DNA of 64,000 nucleotides from Blastomonas sp. SL216 (GTDB taxonomy: Bacteria; Pseudomonadota; Alphaproteobacteria; Sphingomonadales; Sphingomonadaceae), in the NCBI GenBank assembly GCA_026625625.1, contig CP113055.1, positions 622,501 to 686,500 on the forward strand, written 5' to 3'. The position numbers and the translations under genes were made by a program. Shown here one piece after another: positions 6,239 through 60,055 of the stretch. The stretch's first letter is position 1. Each line of letters opens with the position of its first letter. A model generated the notes under the pieces. It saw only the letters and a program-made list of their open reading frames with translations. It did no database searches and was not told the origin of the DNA.

Positions 6239-7141
6239 TCAGGTCGCCCTCCAGAATATGCGGTTTATATAATAGTCCTTCGCTGGCTTGCCGTCCTTGT
6301 CCAGCGAGGGCGTGAACTTGGCGCGGCGCTTGATGACATCGCAGCTATAGGGTCCGATGGTCGCCGGCGTGGTGGAGCCCAGCACGAAGCAATTTGCAAC
6401 CGCACCGGTTTCGTCGATCACCAGCCTGAAATCGACGATGGCCGACGTTCCCCTGGCGAGCATGGCGTCAGGATAATCGCCAGTTTGCGCCCATTGGCCG
6501 GGCTTGCTCGCAGGTTCCGCTCGCTTCGGGCGCGCTGCGATCTCGGCTGGATCGAAGCCCCAGGAGCGGACCAGATCGTCGGTGCAGGCCCGCATCGCGG
6601 CCATCGGAGCTGCCATCGATACCAGATCGAGCGTGAAAGGCTCACGGCCCGAAAGCTTGACATAGAGCCCGCTGACCGCCTTTTCGGTGTCTGCGGTGAC
6701 CCGGGGCAGATCGGCAACGCCTGACCCTGGCGAGTCCATATTGTCCAGCCGCATCGATTCTGAAAACACCACGGGAATCTGGGCGTTTTTCGGCCCGACG
6801 CTGCCGTGGGTGACGAAAGAGAGCGCGGATTTTTCCGAGCTGGGGCGGAATTCCAGCTGCGCGCGCGAGCGCAATTCGCTCTGATAGCCCAGGCGCGATC
6901 CCATCAGGGTGACGCGCAGGCTATCCTGCGGCCCATTTCGAGTGAAGCGCGCCTTTACCTCGTTCTTGCCTTCGCCGAACGTGGCAGACAGATGGCACGC
7001 GTTGGTCGCATAATCCATATTCCAGGGGCCACTCTGTTTCAGCAGGTCGCCGGGTTGGTCCGTCGCCGAAACGGTGAGCAACGCGATCACCGGGGCCAGA
7101 GCCACTGCCCATCGTGCGCGCGCATGCGCGGCCGCTATCAT
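6239..7141 (-). CDS. Secreted protein with C-terminal TonB-like domain
   Basis: 300 residues. An N-terminal signal or anchor (ARWAVALAPVIALLTVSA) is followed by about 190 residues of unrecognised sequence. The last 80 residues look like the TonB C-terminal fold (GTSAIVDFRLVIDETGAVAN, then KRRAKFTPSLDKDGKPAKDY). There is no Pro-rich spacer as in true TonB, so it is more likely one of the stand-alone periplasmic TonB-C proteins common in sphingomonads than an energy transducer. ATG at 7141 has AGGA upstream. It is divergent from the gene at 7345. Confidence 0.7.
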   Translation of the reverse strand: MIAAAHARARWAVALAPVIALLTVSATDQPGDLLKQSGPWNMDYATNACHLSATFGEGKNEVKARFTRNGPQDSLRVTLMGSRLGYQSELRSRAQLEFRPSSEKSALSFVTHGSVGPKNAQIPVVFSESMRLDNMDSPGSGVADLPRVTADTEKAVSGLYVKLSGREPFTLDLVSMAAPMAAMRACTDDLVRSWGFDPAEIAARPKRAEPASKPGQWAQTGDYPDAMLARGTSAIVDFRLVIDETGAVANCFVLGSTTPATIGPYSCDVIKRRAKFTPSLDKDGKPAKDYYINRIFWRAT

Positions 7142-7344
7142 ATGCCCATCCTGTCTGATCCCCGATTGTGACCCCGTCGCTTCGCGCCGCAAAGCACGAT
7201 CTGGCGTTTCTGCTATGTTTTGAGGCGCGTGTCTCCCCGTTATTCAAGCAAATTGGGGCTAATACTTGGGTTGACCAGTCTACAGATGCCATTGGTCGAA
7301 TAACGATGCTGAAAACGTGCGGGTGCGACATTTGGGAAATTGTC

Positions 7345-7953
7345 ATGATGCATCACACGGTTTGCAGTGTGGTGCCGCCACATGAATTCCGGAAAATGCT
7401 TGCGTCGTTCACATTGGGCTCAATGCCGGCAACGACAGCCGTCGCGCAAATCCAAAGCCCCAGCGCCGCAGAATCCATCGTCGTCACCAGCCCGGAAGAG
7501 GTGCGCAAGCTGCGCTCGCCGGGGCTGCCGATCCGCTGGTTCTATACGCAGACGGTCGAAGGGCTGGGCGGACGCACCACGACGCGCGGCGACCAGGGGG
7601 TTGCGCTGCTCAAGAACGTCAATCCCGGCCGCATCGACAGCCCGATCCAGGTGAGCATCATCGGCTGCACGGTGGTGGTCGACATGCCGCGTGTTTCGCA
7701 TGTCTCGATCGGGGCGCTGACCGATTATCTGGCCTTCGCCATTCTCTCGCGCACGCGCATGGATGCTACGCCGAACGCGTCGAGCATCATGAACCTGTTC
7801 GAGGCGAGCCAGGACGAGCGTCCCGATGCGATGACCGACCTCGACAAGGCGATGCTGAAAGCGCTGTACCGCATTCCGATCAACCGCAACGCAGCCGTTC
7901 ACCGCGCGCAGATTGCCAGCGAGATCATCAAGGAAATTTCGGCGGTTCAGTAA
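7345..7953 (+). CDS. Predicted secreted protein, unknown function
   Basis: About 202 residues if the ATG at 7345 is used. The start is uncertain: 7345 and 7348 give an n-region with Arg-Lys before a hydrophobic stretch and an AVAQ cleavage site; 7396 would leave no positive charge. Base composition upstream of 7420 is clearly more AT-rich than the gene body, which favours a late start. The C-terminal MTDLDKAMLKALYRIP and the preceding MNLFEASQD recall DUF2927-like secreted proteins, but this is faint. Function unknown. Confidence 0.55.
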   Translation: MMHHTVCSVVPPHEFRKMLASFTLGSMPATTAVAQIQSPSAAESIVVTSPEEVRKLRSPGLPIRWFYTQTVEGLGGRTTTRGDQGVALLKNVNPGRIDSPIQVSIIGCTVVVDMPRVSHVSIGALTDYLAFAILSRTRMDATPNASSIMNLFEASQDERPDAMTDLDKAMLKALYRIPINRNAAVHRAQIASEIIKEISAVQ

Positions 7954-7980
7954 CGCGCCAGAGCCAGTTTCTGCCTGCCA

Positions 7981-8001
7981 GGGATGGATCTGGTCCATCC
8001 C
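7981..8001. terminator. Hairpin between convergent genes, possible bidirectional terminator
   Basis: GGGATGGA and TCCATCCC form a perfect 8-bp stem around a TCTGG loop in the 63-bp gap between the converging genes ending at 7953 and 8017. There is no T-run on either strand, so intrinsic termination is not proven. Confidence 0.4.
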
Positions 8002-8016
8002 CGGCGGCGATTGGCA

Positions 8017-8496
8017 TCAATCTTCAACCGCGCTCGACTGGAGCTGGATATAATTCTGGATGCCCATGCGGTCGATCAGGTCGAACTGCGCTTCCAGCGT
8101 GTCGACATGCTCTTCCTCGCTGTGGAGGATATAGGCCAGAAGGTCGCGGCTGCCATAGTCGCGGACGGTTTCGCAATAGGCGATGCCTTCCTTGAGCAGC
8201 GGAATCGCCTCGTTCTCGAGCGCGAGGTCGGCCTTGAGGATTTCCTCGACCGTCTCGCCGATCTTCAGCCGTCCGAGCAGCTGGAAATTGGGCAGGCCGT
8301 CGAGGAACAGGATGCGGTCCGCCAGCTTGTCGGCGTGCTTCATCTCGTCGATCGATTCCTCATATTCGAACTTGGCGAGCTTCTTGATGCCCCAATTGGC
8401 CAGCATCTTCGAATGCAGGAAATACTGGTTGATCGCCGTCAGCTCGTTCTTGAGCGCGTCGTTGAGATATTCGATGACCTTGGGGTCGCCCTTCAT
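8017..8496 (-). CDS. bfr: Bacterioferritin
   Basis: 159 residues, the normal length. It stores iron as a ferric mineral inside a 24-subunit shell with haem between subunits. Ferroxidase ligands are visible in [27 protein letters not shown] and [12 protein letters not shown]; the Met of DEMKH is the expected haem ligand. GGAGC precedes the ATG. It lies downstream of bfd on the same strand, with a 147-bp gap, so the two may be co-regulated by iron. Confidence 0.95.
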
Positions 8497-8643
8497 GATG
8501 ATGCTCCTGTAACCGCACGGCCTCTCTCAAGGCGCATGGGCGTGATTAGTTCAGGAGCGCACAATAGCGCCGTTTTCAGCGATTGGAAAGACTTTGCAGC
8601 GCGGGAAATACTTGATTTTTAACCGGAATTTAGCCGGCTATTG

Positions 8644-8814
8644 CTAGGCGGTCGCAGTTTCCCGGGTGATAATGCTTTGCGCAAACGACAGGCACTGGCC
8701 GCATTTGGGACGCCGACCGAGCCGAGCGTAGACCTCTGCCGGGCGGGCCGCGCCATCGCGCAGAGCGTCCTTGAGGTCCTGTTCCCGAATCGCATTGCAG
8801 ATGCAAACAACCAT
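8644..8814 (-). CDS. bfd: Bacterioferritin-associated ferredoxin
   Basis: 56 residues. A short [2Fe-2S] protein with the four Bfd ligands in CxC...CxxC arrangement: Cys4 and Cys6 (MVVCICNAI) and Cys38 and Cys41 (RPKCGQCLSF). In other bacteria Bfd docks on bacterioferritin and passes electrons to release stored iron. The ATG at 8814 is preceded by an AGGAGAG site. A Fur-box-like sequence lies about 30 bases upstream, fitting induction under iron shortage. Confidence 0.92.
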   Translation of the reverse strand: MVVCICNAIREQDLKDALRDGAARPAEVYARLGRRPKCGQCLSFAQSIITRETATA

Positions 8815-52908: not shown

Positions 52909-53080
52909 CGCTGGCAAGCGGGAGAATGCGGCTCCGGAAGCCTTGGCCAGCCGGGAGCAGCGAACATGGTGCCGCACCGGGCAAGGCGCAAGGGCTGGAC
53001 GGCGGCTGGAGGGAACGCCTTTGCGGGTGCGGCGTATGCATGTTAATCGAGATCAACTTTGGCTTGAGGGAAGCACAAAC

Positions 53081-53533
53081 ATGAAAATCCGTTCGTTCAG
53101 CACCGCGGCGCTGGCCATCTGCATGGCTGGAACTGCCTTCACCCTGCCGGCGATCGCCCAGCAGGCGAGCGCGCCCGCGTCCGAGGCACCCGATAGCGGA
53201 TCGATGGAGCCGTCGCCGGTAACGCGCAATCCCAGCACCCCCGAAGAACAGGCGCAGCGCGAGGCGGCCAATGCGGCGCAGGTCCAGGCGTCGAACGCGC
53301 AGCTCGCTCAGAATGCGGCCAATCTCGCGAATTACGAGGCGCGCCGGTCGAGCTATGAAAACCAGATGAAGCTGTACGAGAACACGGTCGAATCGCGGGC
53401 TCGCGCCGAAGCCGAATATGCCGAGGTGAAGAAGCTGTACGATGCCATCCATGCGCAGTGGGAGGCCGATGTTGCCGCCTGCACCGCCGGCGACCGCAAA
53501 CGGTGCGCGCAAGCTCCGGTGATGCCGCAATAA
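53081..53533 (+). CDS. Secreted helical protein of unknown function
   Basis: 150 residues with a signal peptide (ALAICMAGTAFTLPAIAQQ) and GAGGGAAG before the ATG. The mature part begins with a Ser/Pro/Glu-rich stretch and continues as a coiled coil rich in Ala, Gln and Asn (AANAAQVQASNAQLAQNAAN, YENQMKLYENTVESRARAEA). Two cysteines near the C-terminus (VAACTAGDRKRCAQ) may pair. Function unknown. Confidence 0.75.
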   Translation: MKIRSFSTAALAICMAGTAFTLPAIAQQASAPASEAPDSGSMEPSPVTRNPSTPEEQAQREAANAAQVQASNAQLAQNAANLANYEARRSSYENQMKLYENTVESRARAEAEYAEVKKLYDAIHAQWEADVAACTAGDRKRCAQAPVMPQ

Positions 53534-53560: not shown

Positions 53561-54937
53561 TCATCCCGTTTTCGGAAGTACCAGTGTAAAGCGCGCCCCC
53601 TGACCGGGCGCGCTTTCGACCGTCAGGTCGCCGTCCATCGCCAGCGCCAGCCTGCGCGAGATGTACAGTCCCAGGCCGCTGCCGCCATCGCCGCTGCGGC
53701 CCAGCCGTTCCCATTTGTTGAACAGCCGCTGCTGCTCTTCATCGGTCATGCCCGGCCCCTGGTCGGCCACGGTGACGCTGGCCCAATCGGGGCCATCGTC
53801 GAGACGCAGCCAGATCATCGACCCGTCGGGTGCATAGTTGATGGCATTGCCGAGCAAGTTGAGCAGCACCTGCAGCACGCGGCGGAATTCGCCGATCGCG
53901 GGCAGGCTTTCATCCTCGGAGGGCTTGTCGATGCGGATCGAGCGGTCGGCGGCCTTGAGCGCAAGCAGCCCGGCTGCGCGGCGCGCCAGATCTGCCATAT
54001 CCACGGGTTCGCGAGCGGCACTGAAGCCGCTCGCCTCGATCGCTTCAAGGTCGGCCAGGTCGTCGATCAGCGCCAGCAGATGCCGTCCTGCCGATGCGAT
54101 ATCGCCCGCATAGCTCGCGTAATCCGCGCGCAACGGGCCCTCTAGTCGGCCACCGATGGTCTCGGCATTGGCGATGATCCGGCCGATCGGCTGGCGCAAG
54201 GCCGGGCCGATCTGGCTGCCGAACATCCGCGCGAGTCGGTCGCCGTCGAACAGCGGCGGCAGCGGCGCGGCCTGCGCGGTCTCGGTGAGCGCCGGTGCTT
54301 CGGTCAGGATCAGGTGCCAGCCCGCTGCCTGATCGTCGCGCACCCGTTGCAGCGCCCATGCGCGGTCATCGCCGACGATGCGGACGCGCGCGCCGTTCTG
54401 GCAATCGGCGAGCACCAGCGGGCCGCCGTCTTCGTGCATCAGCAGCGAACCCACGGGCTTGAGCGTGCTCTTCTCGGGCTGCCATTCGGCAGAAAGGCCC
54501 ATGGGCGTATCGACATGCAGAATACGGCCGAGCGGATCGACGCGGACCCGCAGCGCATCGGCCAAGGGTGGCAGGGGTCCTGCCAATGGTGCCGTCTCGC
54601 TCGCCGGTGCCAGCGCGCGCGCGCGCCACTGGGTGATGACCAGCGCCACACCTTCGGACTCCGGCGCGCATTCGCACCACATATCGATCAGTTCAGCCGG
54701 ACCTGCCGCAGTGACAGGGCGCGACAGGTGCATGCCGAGCCGCATCGCGTGTCGCGCCAGATCGAGCAGGGCGGGTACGGCGAGCATTTCGCCCGGGGCA
54801 CCGCCCAGGCTGGCATGCAGGTCCGCCAGTGCTCCGTCGGCGCGCAGCAGCCGACCGTCGCGGTCGACATGCGCTTTCAGCGACGCTGCGTGCGGCGTGT
54901 CTGCCAGCACGGAAGGATTGGGTTGCCGGGCGTTCAC
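53561..54937 (-). CDS. Histidine-kinase-like protein without phospho-acceptor His
   Basis: 458 residues from a GTG that overlaps the upstream stop (GTGA). The first 200 residues are PAS-like (RVRVDPLGRILHVDTPMGLS). The dimerisation helices read FGSQIGPALRQPIGRIIANA; where kinases have the His of H-E-L-R-x-P, this has Pro (about residue 245). The ATP-binding domain is intact: N box LLNLLGNAINYAPDG, G1 DQGPGM, G2 GSGLGLYIS. It may bind ATP without classical His autophosphorylation. Co-transcribed with a DUF2336 gene. Confidence 0.82.
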   Translation of the reverse strand: MNARQPNPSVLADTPHAASLKAHVDRDGRLLRADGALADLHASLGGAPGEMLAVPALLDLARHAMRLGMHLSRPVTAAGPAELIDMWCECAPESEGVALVITQWRARALAPASETAPLAGPLPPLADALRVRVDPLGRILHVDTPMGLSAEWQPEKSTLKPVGSLLMHEDGGPLVLADCQNGARVRIVGDDRAWALQRVRDDQAAGWHLILTEAPALTETAQAAPLPPLFDGDRLARMFGSQIGPALRQPIGRIIANAETIGGRLEGPLRADYASYAGDIASAGRHLLALIDDLADLEAIEASGFSAAREPVDMADLARRAAGLLALKAADRSIRIDKPSEDESLPAIGEFRRVLQVLLNLLGNAINYAPDGSMIWLRLDDGPDWASVTVADQGPGMTDEEQQRLFNKWERLGRSGDGGSGLGLYISRRLALAMDGDLTVESAPGQGARFTLVLPKTG

Positions 54938-55929
54938 CAGCCGGACCCGTGCAAAAGATCGGGCGCAAGATTGCGCCATTGCGCCAGCAACCGCGTGGCA
55001 TCCTCGGTCGTCAGCGCGCGCAGATCGGCAGATGTCGGCACGTCCTCGGGACGCAACGAGGCGAGCGTCGCCATCCCCTGCAAAAGGCGCGTGGCGATAT
55101 CCGCATCCACCCCGCAGGCCCGCAGCACGACGGCGAGACGCGCCAGATCGGCATCGCGCAGCATGTCGAACAGCAGATCGGAGGGCAGGCCGCTCACCCG
55201 TTCCAGCATCGCCATCACCAGCGACGGTCCATTGTCCGCCAGCGCCCAATCGTCGCCGGCGCGCGGCAGCGTGAACAGGTGGCAGAAGCGCATCAGCCGG
55301 TGGGGGCGTCCGCGCCGCTCGTCAAAGCCCTGCAACAGCGCATTACCCGCCTGGCCAAGCGCGACCGGATCGGTGCCGGGCTGGTCCTGCAGCCAGGCCA
55401 GTGCGAGCCGGACGAGGCCGTGCAATATCTCGGGAGGCAGTTCATCCAGGTCGATGACAAAGGCCTGAGCACGGCTGAGGAAGCGGCTCTGGGCGATGAT
55501 CAATGCCATCGCCGCTTCGGACAATTCGTCCTGCGCGTCGGCGATCTGGGTTTCGACCCGGGGCGGCAGTTCGGGAATGTTGAGGCCGACCAGACCGGTA
55601 TGGCGGCACAGCCGCGCCTCGATCGCGCGCGCGTGCAGCAGCCGGATGGTCGGGCCGTGGCTGATCACGACATGCCGCGCCATTTCGCCAGTGCGCCCTG
55701 CATCATCGCGTCCGGCAAGGGCTTCGGCGAGGCGCGCAGCGATCGATTCGGCAAACCCGCCGGTCAGGCTCAGATCGTCCTCGCGCAGCGCCTGAGCGCT
55801 TTCGGGGAGCAGATGCTGGCGCACCAAAGCGGGAACCGCCATCGCCTGCCGGGCCTGCACTTCGGCCTGACGCAGCAGCGCGCCACCATCCCGTAGGGCC
55901 GGGCGTGCAGGGGCCATGTCGGTTTTCAT
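54934..55929 (-). CDS. DUF2336-like protein
   Basis: 331 residues, all helical, repeat-like. ETQIADAQDELSEAAMALII, EILHGLVRLALAWLQDQPGT and FDMLRDADLARLAVVLRACG resemble the HEAT-like DUF2336 proteins of alphaproteobacteria, which often sit near signalling genes. Function unknown. Its stop overlaps the GTG of the kinase-like gene, so the products are probably made in fixed ratio and may bind each other. Confidence 0.7.
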   Translation of the reverse strand: MKTDMAPARPALRDGGALLRQAEVQARQAMAVPALVRQHLLPESAQALREDDLSLTGGFAESIAARLAEALAGRDDAGRTGEMARHVVISHGPTIRLLHARAIEARLCRHTGLVGLNIPELPPRVETQIADAQDELSEAAMALIIAQSRFLSRAQAFVIDLDELPPEILHGLVRLALAWLQDQPGTDPVALGQAGNALLQGFDERRGRPHRLMRFCHLFTLPRAGDDWALADNGPSLVMAMLERVSGLPSDLLFDMLRDADLARLAVVLRACGVDADIATRLLQGMATLASLRPEDVPTSADLRALTTEDATRLLAQWRNLAPDLLHGSGW

Positions 55930-55989
55930 CGCCTTGCCCTACCAATGGCTGGTTAAAATGCTGTTAGTTCAATGTCGCAGCGCACTGGC

Positions 55990-57201
55990 TCAGATATGGG
56001 GCGGGGCCTTGTCCGCCGCAAGCGCATCCGGGCGTGTCTGCCACAGCAAAAGCCCGGTGAGCGCCAGATTCCACAGCATCAGCATCGGCATCAGCCCGCC
56101 AAGTGGCAGGGCGATCAGGGCAGCCAGTGCAATCAGGCTGGGCGATCCGGCCAGCCGTCGCCACAGCCGGGGCAGGGGGCCAGGCGTCCGGCCCAACACC
56201 GTGGCCAGGCCGGGCAGCAGCAGCGCGGCAAACAGGCCCGACAGCCTGTCCGATGCCGCGACGCTGAGCACCGTCACCACGATGAAGGCGAGCGCAAAGG
56301 CAGCATTGCGTGCCGTCTGTTCCCAGCTGCCGGTGATCGTCGCTGCGAAGCGCCCGAACAGGCGATTGGCGGCATGGCCCCCGGCGCGCCCGAGGACCAG
56401 CAGGGGGAGCGCCGCGACGCTGAAGCCCGCAGCCGCCAGGCCGATGCCCATCACCGGCAGCGCGATTGCCGACAGGCGCAGCGCAGGTCGGCTCCAGCGC
56501 GCGGACCAGGCCTTGCGGGCCAGATTGCCGAACAGGCCGGTATGCACCAGCCGCCCGCCCAGCGGACCGGCCGATCCGGCCAGCTCTTCCAGCGCCAGTG
56601 TCTCGATTTCGGGGGCGTTGCGCACCATCGCGATCCGCCCGGCTTCGGCGAGCGAAAAGGGCAGGATTTCGCGTCGATAGCCTTTCTGCACCGCCAGCCG
56701 CAGCAGTGCCGACTGGATGCTCCAGTCTTCGGGCAGGTCGCGCGCCTCGACCAGATCGCGCGCGCGGACACAGGCCAGACCCGCCCAGACATGGTTGATA
56801 TCGATCCGCTCGAACCGCTCGATCAGCACCCGTGCGCCTTCGCCGGGCGCGAAGCTGGCGACGAACGTGCCCGTCTCGCGCGCCAGCCGGTGCATGACGC
56901 CGGGCGCCACATACAGGCCATCGGCAATCACCAGCAGTTCGTCCTCGCTCGCCAGCCGCACGCTGATATCGGCGATCGAGCGGACGAGCTGGCAGGGAAT
57001 GCCGCGCTGGGCTGCATAGGCCTCGATCTCTCGCGTGCGATCGTCGACCGCGCCGACCAGGCACAAAATCTCGCCCGCACCGGCATCTGCCGCCAGATCG
57101 ACATGCAGCATCGCCAGCCGACCCTGCGCGAGCGGAAGCGATCCGCGCAGCGCAGTGCCGCCGGGAACAGTCTCGATCAGCGATATCAGCGCAGCGCGCA
57201 C
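55990..57201 (-). CDS. Membrane protein of unknown function with nucleotidyltransferase-like N-terminus
   Basis: 403 residues from GTG (AGGAG about 11 bases upstream). The N-terminal 200 residues have a Rossmann-like pattern (ILCLVGAVDDRTREIEAYAA, EDELLVIADGLYVAPGVMHR) that recalls sugar-nucleotide transferases, without a clear GxG loop. The C-terminal half has about six membrane segments (ALPVMGIGLAAAGFSVAALP, NAAFALAFIVVTVLSVAAS, SLIALAALIALPLGGLMPML). I do not recognise the family. It stands between the Hpt-like and DUF2336 genes on the same strand. Confidence 0.65.
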   Translation of the reverse strand: MRAALISLIETVPGGTALRGSLPLAQGRLAMLHVDLAADAGAGEILCLVGAVDDRTREIEAYAAQRGIPCQLVRSIADISVRLASEDELLVIADGLYVAPGVMHRLARETGTFVASFAPGEGARVLIERFERIDINHVWAGLACVRARDLVEARDLPEDWSIQSALLRLAVQKGYRREILPFSLAEAGRIAMVRNAPEIETLALEELAGSAGPLGGRLVHTGLFGNLARKAWSARWSRPALRLSAIALPVMGIGLAAAGFSVAALPLLVLGRAGGHAANRLFGRFAATITGSWEQTARNAAFALAFIVVTVLSVAASDRLSGLFAALLLPGLATVLGRTPGPLPRLWRRLAGSPSLIALAALIALPLGGLMPMLMLWNLALTGLLLWQTRPDALAADKAPPHI

Positions 57202-57300
57202 GTCGGGTTCCGGCTCCTAGGTTAGAGAAGCGGTCCTCTTATCGGCTGGCTGTAGGGATGCCAACCGGTGCTGGGCGATGCCGGCGCAATATGCGCGAGT

Positions 57301-57618
57301 TTACATGGAGTTGGGTGAGATTTCGCCGAAATCGCGCATCGCGGTGGCGAGGTCACGGAGCACCACCGGATCGCCGGGAGCACCCTCCAGCGCTTGATCG
57401 GCCAGATCGACAATGCCCTGCACGCCAAAGCTGGCTGCGAGGCTCTTCAGGCGAAGGGCGGCGAAATGCCAGTTGGCATCGCATCGCGCCCGGCCCAGCA
57501 GATCGATCTGCCGCGCCGCGCTTTCGATGAACGCGCCGCGCAGTTCTGCGAGAAGGTCGGGATCGCTGCCGACGGCTGCAGCCAAGGCCGCGTTCAAAGC
57601 TCCGGATTCATACGCCAT
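57301..57618 (-). CDS. Hpt-domain-like protein without phospho-acceptor His
   Basis: 105 residues (start 57618, MAYESGALNAAL). A four-helix histidine phosphotransfer fold is suggested by DLLAELRGAFIESAARQIDL, WHFAALRLKSLAASFGVQGI and DLADQALEG. In Hpt domains the motif is A-H-x-L-K-G/S; here it is A-L-R-L-K-S, with Leu55 in place of His. It heads the minus-strand cluster and is 70 bases from the divergent coiled-coil gene. Confidence 0.7.
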   Translation of the reverse strand: MAYESGALNAALAAAVGSDPDLLAELRGAFIESAARQIDLLGRARCDANWHFAALRLKSLAASFGVQGIVDLADQALEGAPGDPVVLRDLATAMRDFGEISPNSM

Positions 57619-57688: not shown

Positions 57689-60055
57689 ATGGGCGAGGGG
57701 AAAAAGATCATAGACCTGCGGCATGGTCGCAGCGACGAAAATCCTGCGGCGCAGGAGCCGGTTCCGGACATGGCGGCACCGGTTCTGTCGGCGCGCGCGG
57801 CTTCCGGGGAGGAAGGCGATTCGCACGTTCCATGGGCCGATGAGGAGGACGCGCCGGTGATCGGGCGGTCCATCGGTCTATGGGGCTGGGTGGCGCTTGG
57901 CACTGGTATCGTCTGGACCGCGGCCTATGTCTGGGCGTCGCTGCCGATGTGGCAGGGCATGATGACCCCGGCGCTCGCCACCCAGGCGCTGGCGCAATGG
58001 GCGATGCCGATGGTGCTGATCGCGGTGCTGTACCTCGCCTTTCAGCGCAACAGCACCAGCGAGGCGCGACGCTTTGCCCAGGTGGCAGGATCGCTGCGCG
58101 CCGAGAGCGCGATGCTCGAATCGCGGCTGACGCATGTGAATGCGGAACTGTCGCTGGCGCGCGAGTTTCTCGCCAACCAGAGCCTTGAGCTGGAATCGCT
58201 CGGCCGGGTTTCGAGCGACCGGCTGCGCGGGTTCGCCGAGGAACTGCGCGCGACCATCGAGGCAAGCGATACCGGGATGCGCGCGATCGGCGAGGTCAGC
58301 GCGGCGGCATCGGGCAATATGGAAAAGCTGCGCAACCACCTGCCGGTAATCGCCAATTCCGCCAAGGACGTGACCAACCAGATCGGCAATGCCGGGCGCA
58401 CCGCGCAGGGCCAGGTCGAAAGCATGATCAATGCGTTCCAGAAGCTGAACGCATTCGGCCAGGCGGCGAGCACGCAGATCGCCGCGCTGGTGCAGGAATC
58501 GGATGCCGCGACGCAGCGGCTCGCCCAGTCGGTGGATGCCAGCGGGACCGCGCTGACCCAGCAGGTGGCTGAAGCCAGCCAGCAGATGGACCAGGCGATC
58601 GAGACGGTCGCCAGCCGCCTCGCCAACACGCGCAGCAATCTGGACCAGACCACCGAGGCTCAAGCCGAGCAGCTCCGAACGCTGATCGGCGAGCTCGAAC
58701 GTTCGTTGCTGAGCATGGCTGACGCGATGGGCCAGCGCGCGGCAGATAGCCGCCGCGAGTTGCGCGTTGCATCGGACGACATGGGCCTGACTCTGAACGC
58801 CCTGGCGACATCGACCGGCGAAAGCGAGGCGACGATCCGCCAGATCATCGGAGCGGCGGATGCCCAGATCGGCGAGGCTGAGCGGCGGCTTCAGGCGATG
58901 GAGAAACAGAGCGGCGAGGCGCTCGCGAGACTCGCGTTCGCGCTGTCCGCGCTCGACGGCAATGTCGCTGCACTGACCGAAAAGCTGGCAGCCGGCAGCG
59001 GCCATGCCGAGATATTCGATGCCAAGTCGCAACAGGTGCGCTCGGTGCTTGAAAGCATCCAGCGGCAGGTGGGCGAGGCGATCCCGCAGGCGCTGACCGT
59101 TCTTGATGATCGCGCGGGCTCCAGCCGCGAGGGCGTCGGCGCGCTGCGCGAAGGCGTCTCGCAGGTCGACGACGAGATGATCCGGCTGGGTTCGGTGCTC
59201 GGCAATTTCGAGCAGCGCATTGCCGAGCAATCGGCCGAGATTGCCCGGCTGGCGCAGAACAGCGAGAGCGGCTGGCGTGCGCGCGCGGACGAAATCGGCG
59301 CGCTGATTGCCGCGATGCGCTCGGCACGCGACGAGATCGACCAGATCAACGACCATAGCGCGATCAAGCTGGTCGAAACCATGCGCGATGTTCAGCGCGA
59401 GGCGCAGGCCGCCGGGGATGAAGCCCGCCGGGCGATGGATCATGCCATTGCCGGGGCCACCGAAAAGCTGGGCAAGGATAGCGGCGCGGCGTTGGAAAAG
59501 GTGCTGCGCGGCAAGGCCGAGGAACTGGTCGGCAAGCTCGAAAGCGCGATCAATCGCGCGGTCGGGGCCACCAGCGATGCCAGCCTGCACCTCAAGGACC
59601 AGCTGGCGCGGGTCGATGACTTGGCCACGCATCTGGAACGGCGGGTCGCCGATGCACGCGAGCTGGCCGAAGAGCGCACCGACAATGATTTCGCGCGGCG
59701 GCTCGCTTTGCTCACCGAATCGCTTAATTCGACCGCGATCGATGTCGACAAGATCCTGTCGACCGAGGTCAGCGACACCGCCTGGTCAGCCTATCTGCGC
59801 GGGGATCGCGGTGTATTCACCCGCCGCGCCGTCCGCTTGATAGACAATGGCGAGGCGAAGGACATCGCCGCAGCCTACGAGAATGACGCGGAATTCTTCG
59901 AGCTGGTGAACCGCTATATCCACGATTTCGAAAGCATGCTGCGCACCGTGCTGTCGACCCGCGACGGCGGCGTCATGGGTGTGACGCTGCTGTCGTCGGA
60001 AACCGGCAAGCTCTATGTCGCACTGGCTCAGGCAATCGAGCGTTTGCGCAACTGA
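57689..60055 (+). CDS. Large two-TM coiled-coil protein (TipN-like?)
   Basis: 788 residues. Residues about 60-120 hold two membrane helices (LWGWVALGTGIVWTAAYVWA, WAMPMVLIAVLYLAF). The following 550 residues are an almost unbroken coiled coil with apolipoprotein-like repeats (QRLAQSVDASGTALTQQVAE, MGQRAADSRRELRVASDDMG). The last 120 residues form a compact end (WSAYLRGDRGVFTRRAVRLI). The layout of two N-terminal TM segments plus a long coiled coil is that of the Caulobacter polarity factor TipN, but homology is not shown. No methyl-accepting HAMP domain is seen. Confidence 0.8.
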   Translation: MGEGKKIIDLRHGRSDENPAAQEPVPDMAAPVLSARAASGEEGDSHVPWADEEDAPVIGRSIGLWGWVALGTGIVWTAAYVWASLPMWQGMMTPALATQALAQWAMPMVLIAVLYLAFQRNSTSEARRFAQVAGSLRAESAMLESRLTHVNAELSLAREFLANQSLELESLGRVSSDRLRGFAEELRATIEASDTGMRAIGEVSAAASGNMEKLRNHLPVIANSAKDVTNQIGNAGRTAQGQVESMINAFQKLNAFGQAASTQIAALVQESDAATQRLAQSVDASGTALTQQVAEASQQMDQAIETVASRLANTRSNLDQTTEAQAEQLRTLIGELERSLLSMADAMGQRAADSRRELRVASDDMGLTLNALATSTGESEATIRQIIGAADAQIGEAERRLQAMEKQSGEALARLAFALSALDGNVAALTEKLAAGSGHAEIFDAKSQQVRSVLESIQRQVGEAIPQALTVLDDRAGSSREGVGALREGVSQVDDEMIRLGSVLGNFEQRIAEQSAEIARLAQNSESGWRARADEIGALIAAMRSARDEIDQINDHSAIKLVETMRDVQREAQAAGDEARRAMDHAIAGATEKLGKDSGAALEKVLRGKAEELVGKLESAINRAVGATSDASLHLKDQLARVDDLATHLERRVADARELAEERTDNDFARRLALLTESLNSTAIDVDKILSTEVSDTAWSAYLRGDRGVFTRRAVRLIDNGEAKDIAAAYENDAEFFELVNRYIHDFESMLRTVLSTRDGGVMGVTLLSSETGKLYVALAQAIERLRN

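Follow-up and report, generated by a model that had tools for sequence, protein, structure and literature searches.

What can a cluster of phosphorelay-like proteins do once the histidines that should accept the phosphate are missing? The question is raised by a 64,000-nucleotide stretch (positions 622,501 to 686,500 of contig CP113055.1, hereafter the window) of the genome of Blastomonas sp. SL216 (3.86 Mb, one contig), a member of the family Sphingomonadaceae, order Sphingomonadales, class Alphaproteobacteria. Here the genes for a histidine kinase (HK)-like protein, HK-P, a DUF2336-like protein, a membrane protein, MEM, and an Hpt-like protein lie on one strand, and the gene for a long coiled-coil protein, TIP, starts divergently 70 bp from the ATG of the Hpt-like gene (Table 1). 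An earlier note on this stretch had described this same-strand cluster with its divergent neighbor, both of which are seen in the sequence, and had suggested that its proteins signal by binding rather than by phosphate transfer.

Comparison with related genomes leads us to propose, with a probability of about 0.42, that HK-P forms a split HisKA kinase together with a second protein of the same genome, FUS, which it would phosphorylate in trans, and that the Hpt-like protein would act as an adaptor. A wider proposal is made only tentatively, as somewhat less probable. In it, two full-length kinases degenerated in opposite ways at the residue level, one being retained solely for its ATP domain and the other solely for its histidine; the resulting HisKA split kinase would be tied to a polarity-type coiled-coil locus, the former Hpt relay of which would have become, in most of the family, an adaptor that handles no phosphate.

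HK-P Has Lost Its Acceptor Histidine and Kept Its ATP Site

The locus was collected from eight congeneric and further family genomes. HK-P (458 amino acids) carries Pro245 at the phospho-acceptor position, as the earlier note had read, and in the alignment of 72 orthologs this residue was not histidine in 71. The residues found in this column were P (40), R (9), G (7), E (4), D (3), K, S, and Q (2 each), and T, A, and H (1 each); in order of variability the column came 49th among the 216 of the core. The ATP site, in contrast to this drifting position, was constant: N360, N364, D392, G394, G396, F406, G421, and G423 were the same in all 72 orthologs and likewise in 10 of 10 His-bearing relatives, and G419 was kept in 71 of the 72. 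The full ATP-binding domain that had been claimed for this protein was recovered by the Pfam HATPase_c model (E = 4.8e-27 when the frame is read at its greater length, 3.7e-27 from the GTG start) and was found in 21 of 21 members scanned. The HisKA scores (23.5 and 23.9 bits) stayed under the 26.9 cut-off, HPTransfase gave weak matches in seven of the 21 members (best E = 0.0068), and the N-terminal region was PAS-like by eye, with a Pfam PAS match in one member.

The surroundings of the acceptor position have changed as well. The residue at +1 was acidic in none of the 72 orthologs and threonine at +4 was found in only four, and therefore HK-P would be expected to lack autokinase activity as well as the usual phosphatase activity; the phosphatase motif H-E/D-x-x-N/T is absent from HK-P, the window reading PALRQ instead. 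Pairwise dN/dS (the ratio of nonsynonymous to synonymous divergence) of HK-P against five congeners was 0.19-0.25, with synonymous distances near 1, so that all dN/dS values given here are rough. Judged from its residues, HK-P retains the requirements for ATP binding and phosphate transfer, yet has no acceptor site. Signaling by binding alone is not supported for HK-P, because all 72 orthologs share the same ATP site while the acceptor drifts; this half of the suggestion in the earlier note is therefore doubtful, whereas for the Hpt-like protein binding is the natural reading.

In one genus (g59; L190-L194 and L140) the acceptor position holds Glu or Asp, which possibly mimics the phosphorylated state.

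FUS Shows the Complementary Loss

FUS was first recognized as a His-bearing kinase that six genomes from two genera carry at their TIP locus, together with the Hpt-like gene in L091, L092, L111, L112, and L113 and without it in L144. In SL216 it is encoded outside the window, on the minus strand at about 1429679-1431766 of contig C1 of genome G000 (L145; match 1429691-1431619). Behind extra N-terminal regions, which by eye resemble PAS and HEAT, the protein keeps its H-E-L-R-T box intact, whereas its ATP domain is ruined. The acceptor histidine was present in 22 of 22 aligned proteins and in 14 of 14 more (36/36), while in all 22 aligned proteins N360 was replaced by Arg and D392 (the G1 Asp) was lost; rows scoring less than 150 bits were left out of the alignment, and one of these, L161 of genome G030, also reads HELRTP. 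Pfam searches of a FUS set (A8; E ≤ 0.1) detected HisKA in 6/6 and HATPase_c in 0/6, and HisKA alone was detected in the FUS of the window's genome; in that of the family genome G082 a sub-threshold HATPase_c match could still be seen (21.1 bits). FUS, as its sequence reads, has a phosphate acceptor site but no working kinase part. In outline it is like the ChpT-type histidine phosphotransferases (a DHp domain with His, a degenerate CA domain), from which it differs by its extra N-terminal parts and by giving, in the proteins scanned, no Pfam HPTransfase match at E ≤ 0.1. The N-terminal part had no profile match to the DUF2336-like family of the window and matched the DUF2336 proteins of outgroups and G082 at 68.6% (E = 5e-5), which is no more than a hint that it shares its origin with DUF2336.

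The ATP-binding part and the acceptor histidine are thus found on separate proteins of one genome. Because HK-P keeps the ATP site without an acceptor and FUS shows the reverse, a split kinase is the simplest joint account of the two. HK-P would pair with FUS via the helices of the DHp domains and would use its own CA domain to phosphorylate the FUS histidine, as CheA4 does with CheA3 in Rhodobacter sphaeroides; phosphorylated FUS would serve a response regulator, the Hpt-like adaptor would probably dock HK-P, a receiver domain, or TIP, and TIP would position the complex in the cell. The report on CheA3/CheA4 (PMC3591291) likewise describes an ATP-binding part without a phosphorylatable His and a His protein without a kinase part. 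Those proteins are CheA-type and lack whole domains, whereas HK-P and FUS are HisKA-type, retain the overall plan of a complete kinase, and differ by residue changes; trans-phosphorylation is proven for the former, whereas for HK-P and FUS the homology, losses, conservation, and co-presence are observed and the pairing, transfer, and output are proposed. The same paper counts 1556 of 42417 HisKA proteins (3.66%) without HATPase and argues that split kinases allow switch-like responses.

The presence of both proteins was scored (E ≤ 1e-45) in 147 genomes of the order, of which 86 belong to the family. HK-P and FUS occurred together in 80/86 family genomes (G082 being counted by its His-bearing HK ortholog), neither was found in five (G125, G027, G146, G168, and G148, where a FUS match of 7e-9 was counted as generic), and only FUS was found in one (G144).

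Several points weigh against the proposed split kinase. (i) G144 has a FUS with His, no HK-P at the above threshold, and no DUF2336 or HK gene at the locus, so FUS can exist without HK-P. (ii) The five genomes without both proteins fall in four genera and represent few events, which are not independent. (iii) In G082 FUS already lacks key ATP-site residues while the HK keeps its His, and hence the losses in HK-P and FUS were not one step. (iv) The two genes are not neighbors in the window's genome. (v) Searches failed to detect the Hpt-like gene in 26 of the 86 family genomes, so that it is no fixed part of the system, with the reservation that the searches scored limited numbers of candidates and that single absences (this one and that of HK-P in G144) may be misses. 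(vi) One HK-P ortholog, L040, does have His in the acceptor column, within an eroded box (DHSFKPS). (vii) The conservation of ATP binding may reflect a role in a conformational switch that involves no phosphate transfer.

The persistence of FUS without HK-P in G144 is also what might be seen if HK-P were active toward a DHp or Hpt partner other than FUS, or in a heterodimer with a complete kinase, and the invariant ATP site would fit this equally. That native HKs can heterodimerize is indicated by two-hybrid results for ChrS and HrrS (PMC9491836). No alternative partner is seen in the cluster, however, and FUS was the only relative met with a complementary loss, although no full search for others was made; we consider such a partner unlikely.

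A Kinase-like Sensor without Phosphate Chemistry as a Close Rival

A close rival to the split kinase is that HK-P works in the manner of DivL of Caulobacter, as a sensor without phosphate chemistry, the DHp/CA fold of which binds a response regulator (phosphorylated) or another kinase and alters its activity, the Hpt-like protein being a binding protein too. We hold this to be quite possible. According to PMC4211667, DivL, which has no acceptor His, binds phosphorylated DivK and has neither kinase nor phosphatase activity; it shares with HK-P the HisKA/HATPase fold, the alphaproteobacterial origin, and an acceptor His that is conserved as missing. The loss of the acidic +1 residue and mostly of Thr at +4 would be expected of a DHp domain that no longer handles phosphate, and the HK-P profile matches the DivL structure 4q20 (E = 2.4e-24), as the 14th of 22 rows and after canonical kinases. 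A kinase without an active CA domain can moreover work through other kinases, as is described for ChrS/HrrS (PMC9491836). DivL, however, carries Tyr at the acceptor (in Magnetospirillum magneticum the residue is Ala), contains several PAS domains, and binds an ATP analog only weakly (57 uM; PMC4211667). HK-P, unlike DivL, has a drifting acceptor, with Ala in 1/72 and Tyr in none, and combines a length of 458 amino acids with an invariant ATP site.

Two kinase-like proteins with Tyr at the acceptor were met in the genomes. One, of 782 amino acids (MSYEFRTPLT), is encoded about 12 kb past the end of the window (L186:210-2558; C1 about 698209-700557), and in genome G031 another directly adjoins FUS (L157:3603-5996, 6290-8680); both are putatively DivL-like. 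From the latter adjacency a link of FUS to the DivL pathway is possible. The ATP site is partly eroded in the former (N360 to A, F406 to L) and largely eroded in the latter, although two proteins are a small control. Because these two ATP sites are damaged and that of HK-P never is, we prefer the split kinase to the DivL-like reading. Should HK-P act by binding only, it would be a second DivL-like invention in the Alphaproteobacteria, with an adjacent pseudo-Hpt.

In several genomes (L145:2615-3655, L149, L091, L092, L112, L113, L144) the gene after FUS was polysaccharide deacetylase-like by eye, and TPR-like and Lrp-like genes were seen on its other side in several genomes.

The Hpt-like Protein as a Probable Former Phosphotransfer Protein

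After two sequences from outside the family (L089, L096) had been set aside, 56 of 58 aligned Hpt rows remained. The phospho-His was missing in 55 of these, the exception being G082 (L087), and the residues at its position were L (23), M (13), Q (8), W (4), E (2), A (2), R, G, and S (1 each), with His only in G082; the window has Leu55 there, the Leu that the earlier note had pointed out. As in HK-P, the His was absent in the close relatives in which its presence would have spoken against a conserved loss, 8 of 8 congeners reading without both histidines.

That the protein is Hpt-like was upheld by profile comparison. The match of the single sequence to Pfam Hpt (E about 0.02) fell below the cut-off, but hhalign aligned the family profile to the canonical Hpts of outgroups and G082 with 96.6% (E = 5e-10) and placed their His on the Leu, and these canonical Hpts occupy the same genomic position, beside TIP. 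On this sequence evidence the Hpt-like protein is homologous to Hpt domain proteins. The predicted model (pLDDT, a per-residue confidence score, 67.8) is only suggestive by itself: the top Foldseek rows were Hpt proteins with E-values that were not significant (3myf, probability 1.00, E 0.21; 7c1i, 0.99, E 0.41), the VIA Z of 10.8 was level with that of unrelated helical bundles, and a PDB sequence-profile search with the family found no Hpt.

Just before the former His, an RCD(A/G)NW motif (residues 45-50, window 57469-57486) was present in 44 of the 58 aligned rows and in neither the four canonical Hpts nor the ten rows of genus g50; it may mark a new binding face. The gene was detected in 60 of 147 order genomes, all of this family (60/86), two of them weakly, and its dN/dS among the five congeners (0.04-0.07) was the lowest of the five genes. 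The protein is unable to pass phosphate by known chemistry, and binding is its most likely mode of action.

The Probable Ancestral State in Outgroups and G082

A His-bearing Hpt divergent from TIP was found in 4 of 4 cases, namely in L125, L126, and L127, which represent two other families, and in L087 of G082, with the motifs LAHKLKG, AVHKLKG, MAHKIKG, and MTHRLKG. It was followed in L125, L127, and L087 by a receiver protein and a second Hpt, which in L132 and L133 of another family stand alone beside TIP. The window's family shares with this Hpt-receiver-Hpt set the divergent TIP and a homologous Hpt in the same place, but lacks the His, the receiver, and, at the locus, the second Hpt. Among the 24 genomes tested, three gave a strong receiver match (>330 bits), namely G082 and two outgroups; the receiver gene was absent in 21 of 22 family genomes tested, where only generic receivers were matched (≤51 bits). 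The missing second Hpt is a finding limited to this locus, no genome-wide search having been made.

The kinase has His-bearing relatives in G082 and in nine genomes of other families (10/10), with the box SHELRTPLN (SHELKTPLN in one). This HK adjoins a DUF2336 gene, as seen in seven of nine outgroup loci and in G082, in the same pair and order as in the window; the kinases of these pairs are complete (10/10), whereas HK-P has no acceptor His. The HKs of L177 and L178 were obscured by overlapping open reading frames in the locus listing and were included in the kinase alignment, and L162 of G082 (242.8 bits) was placed in the His-bearing set by hand for its complete box, with which the tree without the acceptor column agrees. 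In this quick tree of 111 kinases, HK-P, the His-bearing relatives, and FUS each fell on one side of a branch, with support of 98, 99, and 99 in the Shimodaira-Hasegawa-like approximate likelihood ratio test (SH-aLRT), although the long branches of the FUS rows make their placement unsure.

The DUF2336-HK pair is most likely ancestral in the light of these alignments. Since His is present in the outgroup and G082 relatives and the kinase tree separates the groups, both histidines were most likely lost inside the Sphingomonadaceae, after the split of G082 if this genome is early-branching, as its retained features, used here in place of a species tree, would indicate. The two separate losses that the earlier note had inferred thus hold up, both being nearly fixed in the family, both having His-bearing relatives, and both affecting genes under purifying selection.

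If the split kinase is real, a complete phosphorelay was dismantled and rebuilt with its intermediates kept in relatives: a complete kinase, an Hpt with His, a receiver, and a second Hpt in the outgroups and G082, a G082 FUS without key ATP residues, and then the loss of both histidines and the receiver in the remaining family. It would provide a HisKA split kinase amenable to study and would allow one to ask how "dead" signaling proteins acquire new work.

In G082 the DUF2336-HK pair (L162:2545-5291) stands next to two genes that by eye look flagellar hook-associated, a hint of an ancient function in motility.

Gene Layout and Conservation of the Locus

Table 1. Features of the cluster (positions in the window)
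Feature	Position	Strand	Description
HK-P	53561..54937	-	N-terminal sensor-like region, HisKA-like DHp domain, intact HATPase_c
Pro245 codon of HK-P	54203..54205	-	at phospho-acceptor His position; GPALRQPIG vs SHELRTPLN
DUF2336-like gene	54934..55929	-	TGA stop overlaps GTG start of HK-P (GTGA)
MEM, membrane protein	55990..57201	-	
Hpt-like gene	57301..57618	-	phospho-His replaced by Leu55
Leu55 codon of Hpt-like protein	57454..57456	-	at Hpt phospho-His position; AALRLKS vs LAHKLKG
TIP, long coiled-coil gene	57689..60055	+	divergent from Hpt-like gene

The five genes occurred in one layout in 40 of 61 loci (window included), a proportion that is not to be read as a family frequency, as the loci were chosen for a DUF2336-like or Hpt-like match. 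In all 40 the Hpt, membrane, DUF2336, and HK genes were on the same strand and TIP on the opposite one, and TIP and the Hpt-like gene were divergent in 56 of 56 loci holding both. In other genomes the membrane-DUF2336-HK unit was located away from this locus. The overlap of the HK-P start with the stop of the preceding gene suggests that the two are translationally coupled.

The features described are not chance, because the absence of the histidines is conserved family-wide, the dN/dS values are low, and the layout recurs. They could still be those of a relic phosphorelay losing its function, as both His and receiver are lost, the Hpt-like gene was found in only part of the family genomes and in L138 and L139 is missing from its place between MEM and TIP, and the HK matches of G111 and G165 contain one internal stop each. 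Against such decay stand the dN/dS of both the Hpt-like gene and HK-P among congeners, the unchanged ATP site, and the recurrence of the five-gene layout, which together make it very improbable.

The DUF2336-like protein matched Pfam PF10098 with E = 1.4e-4 (21.9 bits, gathering score 34.6), whereas the G082 protein did so with E = 2e-64; the profile of the former matched the DUF2336 proteins of outgroups and G082 with 95.3% (E = 2e-8), and the protein is 67% identical to that of Blastomonas sp. AAP53 (L023). A literature search on DUF2336 found no paper.

MEM, unrecognized in the earlier note, had no Pfam match here either. It is nearly confined to the family: its profile matched 9 of 289 genomes of the class, five of them within the family, while the other four matches were no stronger than 2.5e-4. 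Over the membrane part MEM faintly matches 4mnd, a bifunctional inositol-phosphate cytidylyltransferase/phosphotransferase (E = 0.028), and it lacks the Asp motif of that enzyme, the motif call being partly by eye; the likeness is a lead only, and if real would make MEM the third protein of the cluster with lost catalysis. Its front appeared nucleotidyltransferase-like by eye, and the membrane part faintly CDP-alcohol phosphotransferase-like with the motif lost. A single-sequence structure prediction (mean pLDDT 42) was too low for use.

Near its N terminus TIP has two segments that look hydrophobic by eye, and its C-terminal domain is conserved. It matches 142/147 genomes of the order and 85/289 of the class, the class matches being mostly via the C-terminal domain. 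Its layout, a coiled coil with a hydrophobic N-terminal part, resembles that of Caulobacter TipN, and the part in polarity or cell-cycle control that the earlier note had put forward with reserve would depend on this likeness; literature pairing TipN with Sphingomonas apparently holds nothing about this system.

At 52943-53533 of the window (+), convergent with HK-P, lies a small gene whose frame contains an internal signal-peptide-like start (MKIRSFSTAALAICMAGTAFTLPAIAQ); the gene has a match in all eight congeneric loci.

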